Positions 26,149 to 34,279 of a stretch of 34,279 nt of DNA are shown here, piece after piece. The stretch comes from Bacteroidota bacterium (GTDB lineage: Bacteria; Bacteroidota; Bacteroidia; Bacteroidales; WCHB1-69). Where the stretch lies: contig WRGQ01000167.1 in the NCBI GenBank assembly GCA_009787115.1, positions 1 through 34,279 of the forward strand. Direction: 5' to 3'. The position numbers and the translations under genes are program-made. The number at the start of each line of letters is the position of its first letter. The stretch's first letter is position 1. The notes below the pieces were generated by a model. That model saw only the letters and a list, made by a program, of their open reading frames with translations. It did not search any database and was not told where the DNA came from.

Positions 26149-29100
26149 TTATCTTTGAATATTTACTTTTGTTGCAGTAAATGTATCATTAGCAGATACG
26201 CGAACGGTATAGATACCGTTGGCTACATTGAGAACAATTTGATTTCCTTGCGGAATGCCTTGCCATACAATACGTCCATACATATCGAAGATAGAAAGAT
26301 TGCTGATGGGCAGATGTTTTTCATTCACGATATAAACGATATTGGTGTGGCTATAGATGTTAACGCCATCAATAGCAGGTTCATTGATACCAACAGGACC
26401 ACCGCTGGGAGCGAAGAAGGCTTCGATAGTTCCGTCTGCTTCTACTGCTGCAAAGGTGTAGGTTGTAATTGAACCCATATTGTCGCCATTTACCAATACG
26501 AAGGATATCTTATAATTTTCGTCCGGAGTAATGGTGTAGGTAATATCTTCACCGTAGTTAAGTTCTGTAATACCGGCAGGATAAATAGAGCCATTCGGAG
26601 CGGCAAGCGCTTTGATATTGAATCTTAACAGTTTGCTTATTACCTTGATGGTATGGTCTTCTTGTACATTGAGGAATGCATACCCGCCATTTTGTACAGC
26701 TTCGCCATTGGGAACATCGTCAACCAATACTTTGTCAATTTCATAGCCTGATGCTGGAGCAAAGGTAAAGAACTGGTGCTCTCCATAAGCAACGGTAATT
26801 TGACCGGACGGGGTAATAAATGAGCCTTCGTCAGCAGTTGCAGTAATTTTGTAAATTAACGGAGCCGTTATCACATCAATAGTATGAGAAGCCACTATAT
26901 TCAGAAATGTATAGGTTCCGCTGGTAATGGCTGCTCCATTATCAATACCATCTACAAATACATGGATTATTTCATATCCCGGTAATGCATAGAAATTGTA
27001 AGTTTTGTCTTCGCCATGGGATACGTAAGTAATACCTTCATCTGAAATTACACCATGATCGTTAATCTGCGCTTTAATGGGGTAGGTATATTTTTCAAAG
27101 GTAACATCTAACCATTGTTCTTGCGTAATATAATAGAATGTATAGGAACCTGTGGAGATAGCGTTCGGATAAGACTCGCCGTTAACATATACCGCAGACA
27201 CTTTGTAGCCTTCTTCCGGTGCAAAGGATATCATTTGAATATCATTATAAAATACATTGACATCAGCGCTGTGTGTTCCGGTAGAAACCATCGTGTTGCC
27301 GTACGGAACAAGCGAACCGCCATCGCTCCATCCTAAATGAATTACTAAAGCCATTCTCTTAAATGTTACAAAAATGGTGTGATTGGCTGAAATATTTACA
27401 AAATCATAGCTGCTCATGGAGCCTATCGGTTGATTATCTATATATACCTGATCTACTTCATAGCCTGTGAATGGAATGAAATCAAAATGCGGAGTTGTAC
27501 CGTAAGGAGCTATAGTATAGCCCGCCGGTTCAATGGATCCGTACATACCGGAAGAGGCAAAAATTGTATAGTCAATAGGTCTGAACACCACTCTTATTTG
27601 GTGATTTTGATGAAGATTGATAAACATAAAGTGTCCACTGGTAGCAAGATAATTGAGTATACCGTCAACATAAACAGCTTCAATTTCATAGCCGAATGAC
27701 GGTACAAAATCAAATTCAGGATTATATCCCGAACAGATTTCAATATCTCCCTGCGGATTATTATAGGGGTAATTATCATAAACAACAGCACCTGAACCTT
27801 CTATTACATAATGTATAGCAAAGGTGGGGCAAGGTTCAAATATTGCATGAATGGTATGAGGAGTGTTGCCGGAGAGGAAAGTATAAAGATTATTCACCGG
27901 AGGAATAACCGGAGAATCGTCAACCAACAGTTCGCTGGTGTAATATCCGAAGTTGGGTCTTATGATACAGGTGGCTGATGACTGACAGGTGATATAGCCG
28001 GGTAGAAGATCTATAATACCGTTGCCTCCCGTAGTTGCCGTAATATTGTAATGTACTAAATCCGTTTCTACTGTAATAACAGGTAACGTAGCATCTACAT
28101 GAGTAAATTCATAAGAAGTAACAGGTCCTTGGGATACTCCGCCAATTTTTACATCGGTAATTCTATAACAATTTGCTACAGAGAAAGTAGCGGTAGCATT
28201 ACCGTCGCATGTTATTACGGTGGGGTTTAGTGCTATTTGTGCGCCGGTACCCAGTACGTTGTTCGGATTTAATCCAAACTGTTTAGTGGTGTAGAAGTGC
28301 GTTACCGGAACATAATTATACACAGTTCCATTAGGTATTGTAGTAGGAATCTGGGTATTGTTTGCATAGGAGTATGTACGACCGGTTGCGGGGAATCGTT
28401 GGGCAATCACGCCGGAGTTATTGCTATTGTTTGCGTAAACTTTTTCTGTCATAATACATAAGTTGCCGCCTGTATATACAAAAGGTTGGGATAATTCTAT
28501 TCTCAATTCATAAACATTGGGAGAGGTTGCCGGAACGGAAACAGTTCCGGTGTAAACCGTAGTAAATTCACTATCGGCAATCCAACCGGAAAGCGTGGAT
28601 GAAGCAGTGTGTGCAAAACGAACTCTAATGGACCGCGGAGCAGCTGTTGCAGTAGTTGCTACATAGTTGTACGATATGGCAGTAATCTCTGTTCCGGGTT
28701 CCATATTCAATTCCGCTGCCGTGTAAATAGATTGAGCTCTGGAATTATTGTTGCTAAATCCGAAAGGAAAGTTTTCGTTAGTAGCTGTTCCTGAGGGAGT
28801 ACTAATTGTACCGGTAATGGTCTTTTTTGCAGAACAGAACGAAATAACATTAAGAGATAATAACGACGTTGTATTGTTGGTAAGAAGTTGATCGCCCGTA
28901 TATTCTACAACGCCTTTAATTTTCAATGGACCTTCCATTGTTCTTGGAAAAGTAATCTGAAATGGAACGGTGGTAGTGGCGTCTGTTGCCAATGTTGTTG
29001 TTACGGTTTGTTGCGCTAATAGTTCATTGTCTTCTGTCATTACTTTTACTATATAACTATTTGCGGTTAATGCACCGTTATTTCTTACGGTAACCGTATA

Positions 29101-31383
29101 AGTTTCCGGCGTTAATGCGAGAGGCAAAGCATTTCCGGTTATAGAAACGGCTTCAAGGTCGTTATTAAGAAGCGCAATAAGAGAGATATCATCTACATAA
29201 ATATTATTACCATAAACGGAAACGCCTTCAAAGATGATATATCTTTCTCCCGAAAAAACAGGAAGTGTGAAGGAATACTCATACCATCCGGCTGCCGTTA
29301 CAACAGGAGCAAGGGTTGTAAGTCTGTTAATGGTTCCGAGCAATGTGGCGCCGCTTAAGGTAGAAGTACTGCTAATATGGACATTAACTTTATCTGCAGC
29401 ACTTGACTGTCCAGCATCCCGATACATCCAGAATTTAAGTTTCAAAATTTGATTTTGTCTATCTATAGGGGGAGTAATTAATAATCCCGTATTTCCGGAA
29501 GAATAGTTATAAGAGTTATATTGCAACATACCGGCGCCTGAATGAGTGCTGCAAGTTGGGTTGCCTCCTGTTGTAACTCTTTGCCATGGCGAACTTGATG
29601 TACTTGTACTTGTCCAACAAGCAGGCGGGAAGGTTGTACCGTCGAAACTTTCCGAGAATGGGAATGTAGAAATTGTACAACTTAGCGGAGTAAAGGAACT
29701 GCCGGCGGTAGATGGATTATTAGTAGTAGCGCATATAGCGGCAACGCTCCATGTATATGGGATAGTTTGTAAACCGGTAATGGTTAATGTTGTATTTGAC
29801 GTATAATAAATTGTATTTGTGGTTCCGTTATTAATCGTTACCCGGTACGTTTGGGCATCGCCTGTCCATGAGAGCGTAACAGAATTAGGAGCGGGAACTG
29901 CAGTTAAATTTGTTGGGGCAGCGGCGTTGCAGGGAAGAGCAAAAGCCATACGAATAGCAGCAGCATAGCCCACATTACCGTCATAGATACTACCACCACT
30001 CTGAACCACATACAATATTTTGCCGGCAATTGATTCATAAGAAACTGCCACATTTTCAGCAGTAAGCTGATTTATACAAAGGATGTAGCGTTCTCCTGCT
30101 GCTAATGGGGTAGGAGGTATTGCCACAGTATTCCACCCCGGTGTTCTAAGCACCGCAAAACCTGATAATAGATCTGTGGTGTTATAGGTTAATGCGCCGG
30201 TCATTTTATAGAGTGAAAGGGTGTAAGGAAGTCCTGGTGTAGCGGTAGAGTTGAATCCAATAACTACTTGAGAAAGTGTTGTGGAAGCTGTTATTTCAAA
30301 AATATTTCCAAAAGAAAGCGCGTTACTGTTACTTCCAATTCCATTAGAAGTAGTCGTTACATTATCATACGCATATATGTTAGGTGTTCCTTGAAAAGTA
30401 GCATCAGCAGTATTGTTGGCAGGAGTGGCGTCGGGTTCGGTTTGTGTAACTGTGTAAGTCAGTGTATTTGTTCCTGTAGTCGGAAGTATGTTTCCTGTAG
30501 GGGTTAAGGTTACAGTGGTCAAAGGAGCGATGGAAGGTAGCGATGCAGTACCAAGAACCACATTATTACGTGTAACGGAAAGTTGTACATTGGTTTGGGG
30601 TAATAAACCAATATTTGCAACTTGTGCAGGAAATTTCGTTACAGGCATAGATGTCGGAACTTGAGTATAAGGGAATCTTGGAATAACTTCCAAATCGTTA
30701 TCATCTATTGTTCTAACCAAAATATCATCAACGGCGGTAAAGATTTGGTCATCGGAAGTAGAATAAAAGCCAAGATAATGGTTTCCTGTAGTTGTAGGTG
30801 TAAACACAACAGTTATTTTTGTCCAATCCAAATAATCTTCGGTGTAACTTGACCAAAGCGAGGTGGTCATACCTGCAACAGTCTGGGTAGTTCCGATTCT
30901 TACTTCCAACTCTTCATACCAGTCATATCCCTCCATGATTACCCAAAACTCTATGAGATATTTTGTACCTGCAGTAAGCGAAAAAGCGGACGTAATCATC
31001 CACGCATCATGAGGGGTGGAATTGTACGCAATATATGCAAATCTTGTTCCCGAATGGGGTGAAACATTGCCGTTCACTCCAACTATAGCTCCTCCGGATG
31101 TTCCCCATCTGGTTTTTCCTGCGGTTCCTCCGGATGCAGGGCTACTGACCCAACCTGAAGGGAGTGCACCGGCTCCATTTGCAGTTCCGCCTGTAGTTCC
31201 TTCAAAGCCATGAGAGAAGATTGTTGTGGCGCGTGGTGTAGACTCAAATGTTCCATCACTTCGCATTTCAGTAACAACCGGTTGCAATAGCAGCGAGTTG
31301 TTTCTCAATGATTTCGTTTGTTGTGCAAACACTGCACCAACTATAAGCAGCAATGCAACAAAAATAATTGTAATTTTTTTCAT
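26149..31383 (-). CDS. secreted 1744-aa T9SS cargo: two choice-of-anchor/cleaved-adhesin-like domains, FN3-like segment, tandem InlB-B-like repeats, C-terminal sorting domain
   Basis: Signal peptide MKKITIIFVALLLIVGAVFAQ; FSHGFEGTTGG...LPSGWV and FSESFDGTTFPPACW; repeated GYEIDKVLVDD...YAFLNVQEDHTIKV units; CTD LSIFDMYGRIVWQGIPQGNQIVLNVANGIYTVRV. Confidence 0.9.
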   Translation of the reverse strand: MKKITIIFVALLLIVGAVFAQQTKSLRNNSLLLQPVVTEMRSDGTFESTPRATTIFSHGFEGTTGGTANGAGALPSGWVSSPASGGTAGKTRWGTSGGAIVGVNGNVSPHSGTRFAYIAYNSTPHDAWMITSAFSLTAGTKYLIEFWVIMEGYDWYEELEVRIGTTQTVAGMTTSLWSSYTEDYLDWTKITVVFTPTTTGNHYLGFYSTSDDQIFTAVDDILVRTIDDNDLEVIPRFPYTQVPTSMPVTKFPAQVANIGLLPQTNVQLSVTRNNVVLGTASLPSIAPLTTVTLTPTGNILPTTGTNTLTYTVTQTEPDATPANNTADATFQGTPNIYAYDNVTTTSNGIGSNSNALSFGNIFEITASTTLSQVVIGFNSTATPGLPYTLSLYKMTGALTYNTTDLLSGFAVLRTPGWNTVAIPPTPLAAGERYILCINQLTAENVAVSYESIAGKILYVVQSGGSIYDGNVGYAAAIRMAFALPCNAAAPTNLTAVPAPNSVTLSWTGDAQTYRVTINNGTTNTIYYTSNTTLTITGLQTIPYTWSVAAICATTNNPSTAGSSFTPLSCTISTFPFSESFDGTTFPPACWTSTSTSSSPWQRVTTGGNPTCSTHSGAGMLQYNSYNYSSGNTGLLITPPIDRQNQILKLKFWMYRDAGQSSAADKVNVHISSTSTLSGATLLGTINRLTTLAPVVTAAGWYEYSFTLPVFSGERYIIFEGVSVYGNNIYVDDISLIALLNNDLEAVSITGNALPLALTPETYTVTVRNNGALTANSYIVKVMTEDNELLAQQTVTTTLATDATTTVPFQITFPRTMEGPLKIKGVVEYTGDQLLTNNTTSLLSLNVISFCSAKKTITGTISTPSGTATNENFPFGFSNNNSRAQSIYTAAELNMEPGTEITAISYNYVATTATAAPRSIRVRFAHTASSTLSGWIADSEFTTVYTGTVSVPATSPNVYELRIELSQPFVYTGGNLCIMTEKVYANNSNNSGVIAQRFPATGRTYSYANNTQIPTTIPNGTVYNYVPVTHFYTTKQFGLNPNNVLGTGAQIALNPTVITCDGNATATFSVANCYRITDVKIGGVSQGPVTSYEFTHVDATLPVITVETDLVHYNITATTGGNGIIDLLPGYITCQSSATCIIRPNFGYYTSELLVDDSPVIPPVNNLYTFLSGNTPHTIHAIFEPCPTFAIHYVIEGSGAVVYDNYPYNNPQGDIEICSGYNPEFDFVPSFGYEIEAVYVDGILNYLATSGHFMFINLHQNHQIRVVFRPIDYTIFASSGMYGSIEPAGYTIAPYGTTPHFDFIPFTGYEVDQVYIDNQPIGSMSSYDFVNISANHTIFVTFKRMALVIHLGWSDGGSLVPYGNTMVSTGTHSADVNVFYNDIQMISFAPEEGYKVSAVYVNGESYPNAISTGSYTFYYITQEQWLDVTFEKYTYPIKAQINDHGVISDEGITYVSHGEDKTYNFYALPGYEIIHVFVDGIDNGAAITSGTYTFLNIVASHTIDVITAPLIYKITATADEGSFITPSGQITVAYGEHQFFTFAPASGYEIDKVLVDDVPNGEAVQNGGYAFLNVQEDHTIKVISKLLRFNIKALAAPNGSIYPAGITELNYGEDITYTITPDENYKISFVLVNGDNMGSITTYTFAAVEADGTIEAFFAPSGGPVGINEPAIDGVNIYSHTNIVYIVNEKHLPISNLSIFDMYGRIVWQGIPQGNQIVLNVANGIYTVRVSANDTFTATKVNIQR
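26405..28250 (-). repeat. about 8 divergent tandem protein repeats of roughly 70-75 aa (InlB B-repeat-like)
   Basis: Recurrent pattern G-Y-E-[IV]-x-x-V-[FY]-V-D-[GD]...G-x-Y-x-F-x-N-[IV]-x-x-x-H-T-I in the translation. Confidence 0.8.
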
Positions 31384-32185: not shown

Positions 32186-32653
32186 ATGAGAAAAGCAAAA
32201 CCAAAAAAACGGATTACCCTTCCCGATCCTAAATTTAATGATGTGTTAGTTACGAAATTTGTAAACAACCTTATGTTGGAAGGTAAAAAATCAACCGCAT
32301 TCGAAATTTTTTATGAATCAATGGATCTCATTGAACAGAAATTAAAAGAGAATCCTATTGACGTGTGGAAAAAAGCGTTGGCGAATATCACGCCTGCTTT
32401 GGAAGTAAAAAGTAGAAGAATTGGAGGCGCAACCTTCCAAATTCCTACGGAACTTCGCCCTGAAAGAAAAGAGTCGTTGGGTATCAAGAACATGATACTT
32501 TACGCTCGCAAACGTCATGAGAAAACGATGGCAGCAAAACTTTCCGCCGAAATTATGGCAGCCTACAAGGAAGAAGGCGCCGCATTTAAACGTAAAGAAG
32601 ATATCCACAGAATGGCAGAAGCAAACAAAGCATTCTCACATTTCAGATTTTAA
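32186..32653 (+). CDS. rpsG: 30S ribosomal protein uS7
   Basis: [87 protein letters not shown]. Confidence 0.98.
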
Positions 32654-32716
32654 TCCGATTCTACCTCAATGAGTATTGGCAGATATGATTTTTTGTAGAG
32701 TTTGTATTGATACCAA

Positions 32717-33253
32717 CTACTTTTTCACCACCGCTTTAATCGGGTTCAAAAACCTATCCAACAACCGCAAATCTTCCGTTATAATCTCCGCGCTGCCGGT
32801 CATCTCTTGGCTGAATACCAATTCTTTGCCGTAGTTTGTTGTTAGTTTTTCCGGAAACTCAACCTCCAGCATGTAGGCTTTTTGATTGTCGCCTACGGCT
32901 ACCGGAACTAACGAGATATTCGTGATTTGCACGCGCACCATGCCGAACTCCATGTAGGGATAATTGTCAAATTTTACGTTTACCATTTGTCCCTCTTTTA
33001 CTTTGCCTGCGCCTTGCGGGGGGAGCAAAATCTTGCCTACAATCTTTGTTTTTGCAATGGGAACAACCGTAACCAGTACTTCGCCGGCGTTGATGTTTTG
33101 GTTTTTCTGCCAATATTTAGTTAATGTAACCACGCCGTCCATTGGACTGACTAACAAATAAGTCTGCTCCCAACTTTTGATTTGCGTTTGCAGTTGGTGG
33201 TGTGCAGCATCTAATGTAATTTGCAGATTATTCAATTGTTCACTTATTAGTGG
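32717..33253 (-). pseudogene. C-terminal half of a HlyD-family secretion (membrane fusion) protein, 5'-truncated
   Basis: PLISEQLNNLQITLDAAHHQLQTQIKSWEQTYLLVSPMDGVVTLTKYWQKNQNINAGEVLVTVVPIAKTKIVGKILLPPQGAGKVKEGQMVNVKF. In-frame TGA at 33254..33256 and no lipoyl N-half or TM anchor upstream. Confidence 0.8.
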
Positions 33254-33377
33254 TCAAATAATCAACAAGAATAGAGCATGTATCATTGATACGAAAGTAC
33301 GGAATTTTTAGATATAATAACCAATTAATAACTTGGTTTGTGGATTCATCATGATCATCCGACAAAATTAATAACAT
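33240..33377 (-). pseudogene. N-terminal fragment of a GwsG-like ATP-grasp peptide maturase (grasp-with-spasm system)
   Basis: ORF read directly, below the track length cutoff: MLLILSDDHDESTNQVINWLLYLKIPYFRINDTCSILVDYLTTNK*. The 'DxSTNxVIxWLxYxxxPxxRIN' pattern fits what I recall of GwsG N-termini. Starts 17 nt after the upstream gene's stop. Confidence 0.65.
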
Positions 33378-33394: not shown

Positions 33395-34279
33395 CTAATA
33401 TGTTATAAAAAATTCACTGGGAGTATTTTTTCTCTCTTCCAAAATAGGCAATCCCAAATTTGTACGATGTTTATTTACAAGGTCTTTATCAGGATTGGCG
33501 GCTTTGCCCTCATCATCCCACTCTCCATAATAACTGTATTTTGATCTTCCGCTTGTAATCATACATCTATCGTAAGTACGGGCATATTCTGTAGGTATCA
33601 ATCCATTCCCTTTCAATAATGCGTCTCGTTCTTTGGGTTCAAAATAGGTGAGCCAAAATTCAGGATATGCGGTAAAAATATGTCTGCCAATAACCCACGG
33701 TGCAAATGGATCAATAGTAAGAGGGTTTGTATATTCAGGATATTTCTCTAAAAGATCAACCAATTTTATCATGGTAATAGAATCAACATATTCCAAAATA
33801 TTTTTAGAACAATCCTTATGTTTCGGATAGTCGGTATTGTAGTATCGCGCAAATTGATCCATTGCAAATATCTCTTTTACTTCAATTAAAAGTTCTATTT
33901 CTCTTGCACTGTAATGATGCACATATTTTTCATTCAGTTCTTTTCTCTTTTGGTTATATAACAGTGTATCTTTTTCAAAATATTCTTTACGCTGTTCAAA
34001 TGCTTTAGCGCTCATTTTATTAAGAGCGAATGCCTTTTCATAATATTCAATAGATTTTTCCAATTTTCCCAATTTTGCTAATAAGTCGGCATAGCCAACA
34101 TAATGACTGCTGACATCAATATCTCTTATTTTAAATAAGGAATCATATTTTTCAAGTTTTTTTGTTAATTCATCCAAGTCTGTAACATTACGCCTCATAA
34201 ATGTAGAAGGTCCATTAATATCTTCCAATAGTTTGTAATATTGTTTTACATTTTCAGAAAGAATAAGTTCTTGCGAATA
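33395..34279 (-). CDS. TPR protein with DUF6624-like C-terminal domain (5' end beyond the window)
   Basis: Frame stays open to the window edge (YSQELILSENVKQYYKLLEDINGPST...). TPR-like HYVGYADLLAKLGKLEKSIEYYEKAFALN; C-terminal MDQFARYYN...ILEYVDSITMIKLVDLLEKYPEY...EYARTYDRCMITSGRSKYSYYGEW...VNKHRTNLGLPILEE. Confidence 0.7.
   Translation of the reverse strand, partial: YSQELILSENVKQYYKLLEDINGPSTFMRRNVTDLDELTKKLEKYDSLFKIRDIDVSSHYVGYADLLAKLGKLEKSIEYYEKAFALNKMSAKAFEQRKEYFEKDTLLYNQKRKELNEKYVHHYSAREIELLIEVKEIFAMDQFARYYNTDYPKHKDCSKNILEYVDSITMIKLVDLLEKYPEYTNPLTIDPFAPWVIGRHIFTAYPEFWLTYFEPKERDALLKGNGLIPTEYARTYDRCMITSGRSKYSYYGEWDDEGKAANPDKDLVNKHRTNLGLPILEERKNTPSEFFITY

Follow-up and report, generated by a model that had tools for sequence, protein, structure and literature searches.

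How the first codons of a maturase gene of the grasp-with-spasm (gws) type come to stand directly before the last part of an hlyD gene is the question raised by a locus close to the end of a Bacteroidales (Bacteroidota) metagenome contig, and with it comes a second one, whether this join belongs to the chromosome or to the assembly. The window analyzed here is the entire contig C167 (34,279 nt, ending at 34279) of a 1.89-Mb metagenome bin comprising 170 contigs and 94.7% complete; its genome is labeled G000 and its congeners G001 to G005. In the Bacteroidetes, branch 5 of the ATP-grasp enzymes occurs with a SPASM enzyme and with a small 'LPL' protein encoded directly upstream of the SPASM enzyme, and it also has a 'cluster 23' protein in which His and Arg are conserved; C39-peptidase ABC transporters (C39-ABC) and HlyD are among the most frequent ATP-grasp gene neighbors (PMC8939145). 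We conclude that the locus is very probably the remnant of a grasp-with-spasm RiPP cluster that has undergone one internal deletion of about 5.2-5.5 kb.

Three cluster genes at the end of the contig

The minus-strand frame from 33377 to 33240 translates to MLLILSDDHDESTNQVINWLLYLKIPYFRINDTCSILVDYLTTNK followed by a stop codon (45 aa). In a search against NCBIfam this peptide matched a single family at E<=10, TIGR04192, at positions 1-32 (E 1e-4); its score is 21.8 bits against a family cut-off of 230, only the first 32-38 family positions being present, which suffices to identify a remnant but does not make it a complete member. A GwsG profile made from 16 GwsG proteins of relatives, and run on all 963 window frames of at least 20 residues, gave this frame an E-value of 7.4e-9 and the runner-up 0.69, and aligned it to model positions 1-38, start Met included. 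Over 32 aa the remnant shares 53% identity with the GwsG of G008. Judged by these family and profile matches, the peptide represents the N-terminal end of a grasp-with-spasm ATP-grasp maturase, as the first-pass annotation of this DNA had proposed. The stop codon that closes it is supplied by the HlyD side, the GwsG and HlyD parts lying in different frames.

That annotation also had the C-terminal part of a HlyD-family exporter begin here in another frame, which the searches bear out for the C-terminal ~40% of the protein. The frame from 33253 to 32717 (minus strand) matches TIGR01843 at positions 244-415 of 422 (E 2.8e-18) and Pfam HlyD_3 above its cut-off, and it is 83% and 82% identical to the HlyD proteins of congeners G003 and G005. 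It covers the C-terminal ~175 of ~433 residues, not a full-length membrane fusion protein of about 430 aa, and is stop-free across 174 codons. Its dN/dS against the G003 and G005 genes is about 0.05, and that between G003 and G005 is 0.03; because synonymous sites are near saturation, these values show only that no relaxation is visible. The stop-free frame and the low dN/dS would also be expected of short ORFs that are expressed and functional as they are, a reading to which we give almost no credence: nothing of the ATP-grasp catalytic part is left in the GwsG remnant, the HlyD remnant has neither the membrane anchor nor the protein's first half, sister stubs have internal deletions and stops, and the low dN/dS is the same as that between congener gene copies and is explained by a recent deletion. 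A deletion of the cluster middle was probably recent, to judge from the two reading frames, because both remnants are free of stops and show no visible excess of amino-acid change.

The first-pass annotation had missed the ORF directly upstream of gwsG (Table 1), which is the gene of the ~300-380-aa accessory protein of gws clusters. A BLAST search of this ORF against the accessory proteins of relatives found no significant similarity, and a sequence search of the genome contigs found no relative of it; the link came from profile comparison only, in which hhalign of an 8-member alignment of the relatives' gene preceding gwsG against the ORF gave a probability of 92.8 and an E-value of 4e-7 over 147 columns. 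An accessory protein of ~300 aa directly before gwsG is thus present in the window. The ORF has a TPR-like motif, with TPR matches that are weak and under the Pfam cut-offs, and in the alignment of the relatives' accessory proteins Asp, His and Arg columns are invariant; the protein is possibly the 'cluster 23' family of PMC8939145. Its start is cut off because the contig stops at 34279, inside the gene, and the GG-leader precursor is therefore past the contig end or absent. A 52-bp piece of this ORF (33443-33494; 46 bp exact) recurs at G000:C75:7015-7066, near a contig end and in an unrelated context. With the ORF recognized as a cluster gene, three neighboring cluster genes stand in the correct order and on the correct strand.

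Table 1. Features of the window locus and the further remnants in the same genome.
Feature	Position	Strand	Basis or description
Accessory gene, 3' part (294 codons, 5' end past contig end)	33395..34279	(-)	hhalign profile match; 17 nt before gwsG start
gwsG 5' remnant, first ~38-45 codons, frame differs from following part	33240..33377	(-)	TIGR04192 and GwsG profile
Putative deletion junction interval	33241..33263	(-)	Where GwsG and HlyD homology stop; missing: rest of gwsG, gwsS, C39-peptidase ABC gene, 5' ~60% of hlyD
hlyD 3' remnant, last ~175 residues of a HlyD-family membrane fusion protein, frame free of internal stops	32717..33244	(-)	TIGR01843, congener identity
C53 remnant	G000:C53:4267-4800		Piece of a TIGR04148 radical-SAM peptide maturase (E 4e-18) running into a HlyD C-terminus
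C71 remnant			C39-ABC N-part, broken by short insertion, joined to HlyD; inside contig
C18 remnant			HlyD with 3' internal deletion
C91 remnant			Two HlyD pieces, deletion between; inside contig
C125 remnant			C39-ABC residues 45-83 joined to 588-743
C29 remnant			C39-ABC residues 4-53 only

Intact clusters, the junction and the size of the loss

In relatives, intact clusters run from a GG-leader precursor through a 300-380-aa protein, GwsG, often a small protein, GwsS and a C39-peptidase ABC transporter to HlyD, sometimes with a TolC-like gene. Clusters with this same order are found in G043, G026, G045, G069 and others, and the GwsS of G043:C111 exceeds the TIGR04193 cut-off. The order of ATP-grasp maturase, SPASM protein, peptidase/ABC transporter and HlyD on which the first-pass annotation had relied is therefore found in the intact relatives (TIGR04192, TIGR04193, C39-ABC and HlyD). 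An intact counterpart, sought in relatives and in the genome itself, exists in the former but not in the latter: G000 has no intact GwsG or GwsS, no TIGR04193 SPASM maturase, inside the window or outside it (best E 0.1), no complete C39-ABC and no complete HlyD of the matching kind. None of the congeners G001-G005 has a GwsG match, so that an intact allele at the window locus is not seen.

Compared with these grasp-with-spasm clusters (TIGR04192 GwsG plus TIGR04193 GwsS; branch 5 graspetide-type loci, PMC8939145), the window locus is alike in gene order, in the GwsG N-terminus, in the accessory gene before gwsG and in having HlyD at the far end, but gwsS and the exporter ATPase are absent from it, and the greater part of both gwsG and hlyD is missing. 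A locus in G045:C56 (L088 5579-6650) resembles it in that the accessory gene is directly followed by a truncated GwsG N-terminus; unlike the window locus, it has an in-frame stop in the GwsG part and no adjoining HlyD remnant was found. G045 keeps an intact cluster elsewhere (C59), besides this remnant.

When the window is aligned with eight HlyD genes of relatives, HlyD homology begins at ~33241-33244, and GwsG homology ends at ~33264, placing the join inside the interval given in Table 1; the junction predicted earlier at 33245-33255 is consistent with it. The distance between the equivalent points in three intact clusters is 5170, 5477 and 5491 bp. G+C content is 0.28-0.32 on the gwsG side and 0.44 on the hlyD side; since the G021 cluster shows the same contrast internally (0.32 vs 0.46), no foreign join is needed to account for it. 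Repeats near the junction are short and chance-like only, and a search for the junction sequence in viral contigs found none. We did not adopt a repeat-mediated deletion involving the AATTACG-type repeats described below, which are absent from the window junction.

A single internal deletion of the cluster middle, as originally suggested, is supported by both ends, by order and strand, by the accessory gene and by the match to intact clusters. The ancestral cluster would have consisted of precursor, accessory protein, gwsG, gwsS, C39-peptidase ABC exporter and hlyD, and one internal deletion would have removed everything between codon ~38-45 of gwsG and codon ~260 of hlyD. We infer a single deletion in cis, not several steps, which may have originated in replication slippage or microhomology-type recombination. 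Function would have been lost with it: the peptide would no longer be made, matured or exported, since the locus has lost both maturases along with the exporter ATPase.

The rpsG flank bears on a different origin of the join. In four congeners (G001, G002, G003 and G005) rpsG is followed directly by a gene for a 1200-aa membrane protein; in G000 this gene is on C170 (G000:C170:19601-23185) beside other genes while rpsG is in the window (32186-32720), and synteny with the congeners is broken directly beside the HlyD remnant. The break reflects either a chromosomal rearrangement at rpsG or a wrong join in the contig, located between rpsG and the HlyD remnant. The rearranged rpsG neighborhood would suit an ectopic recombination between the gws cluster and another RiPP cluster using the same HlyD family, and so would the fact that this HlyD family serves non-gws clusters, e.g. 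at G001:C51, and adjoins a TIGR04148 remnant on C53. We consider such an exchange unlikely, since order, strand and spacing fit one cluster and a single cis deletion is simpler. Elsewhere in the window, a 1744-aa ORF (26149-31383, minus strand) has a signal-peptide-like start and a C-terminus resembling, by inspection, a type IX secretion sorting domain.

Parallel remnants and the reality of the join

The genome holds six further remnants (Table 1). Their neighbor genes differ by inspection (rpsG, DNA ligase, thiolase, tyrosine phenol-lyase-like and M48-type protease genes), so the remnants are separate loci. This genome has lost GG-leader peptide clusters several times in parallel, and the scar in the window marks one such loss. 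The C53, C71, C91 and C18 remnants are like the window locus in that the hlyD 3' end is kept and the upstream genes or the hlyD 5' part are gone. On C53 and C71 the partner of HlyD is a TIGR04148 radical-SAM maturase or a C39-ABC gene, where the window has gwsG; on C91 and C18 the deletions lie within hlyD and no other cluster gene is recognized alongside. A TIGR04148 fragment with three stops also occurs in a congener (G001:C51:1950-2135; L077), at a locus that has an intact C39-ABC and HlyD pair.

Other genera of the family have 17 HlyD genes (>40% identity, open frame >400 codons) against 2 interior 3' stubs, and the genome under study has 0 against 5; these counts are rough and not independent. 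In two species from separate bins, G054 and G033, a HlyD 3' stub starts at the same HlyD position, and a 340-bp stretch including the break is 94% identical; the G033 copy has two stops. This common stub is an inherited scar, and its presence in separate assemblies of two species argues that such scars are real.

A fixed HlyD breakpoint was considered and discarded: breakpoints scatter from about residue 120 to 414. Since hlyD sits at or near the cluster end, survival of its 3' end is what internal deletions are expected to leave, and no special mechanism need be invoked. Short dispersed repeats of the AATTACG/AATTAGG type lie at the HlyD break in two congeners (L072, G003:C226; L075, G005:C27) and also beside C39-ABC fragments (repeat loci L072, L075, L014, L092 and L093). 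In G005 a HlyD piece (about residues 104-140) has over 20 further matches across the genome, the behavior expected of a dispersed repeat.

These loci also bear on the possibility that an assembler wrongly linked pieces taken from different clusters, or from a single cluster that is intact in the organism. A metagenome bin with this number of contigs and this completeness, a join only ~1 kb from the contig end, and an exact 46-bp match of the accessory gene near the end of C75 would all be compatible with it. We nevertheless regard it as unlikely. Words common to the gwsG side and to relatives' HlyD-bearing loci reach 8-12 nt at most, which makes a k-mer misjoin hard to obtain. Furthermore, parallel scars lie within contigs (C71 and C91) with different partners, scars with stops occur in relatives, and one HlyD scar has the same breakpoint in the assemblies of two species. 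We therefore favor a genomic join, on the lack of a long word across it, the parallel scars at unrelated loci and the HlyD scar common to two species.

Decay of GG-leader peptide clusters

The locus represents a known cluster type in decayed form, an ordinary case of gene-cluster decay and not a working system; no description of a decayed gws cluster was found in the literature searched. Taken alone it is a pseudogene cluster, of value as an example of RiPP cluster decay, and its interest lies in the recurrence of such losses within one genome. Several stages of decay can be seen there: some loci are two-ended scars (the window, C53 and C71), and at the other extreme HlyD tails of ~20 residues are left. 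Genome mining could otherwise count short stretches of HlyD or ATP-grasp sequence among export or RiPP genes. It is conceivable, as a tentative reading, that the GG-leader RiPP clusters of this genus are eroding repeatedly and in parallel, one genome having lost every exporter copy at at least six separate loci with HlyD 3' ends kept; this could reflect selection against the peptides or their export, or a recombination process favoring such clusters. The recurrent loss of every GG-leader exporter in one presumed gut lineage would offer a possible test case of a lineage abandoning such peptides.
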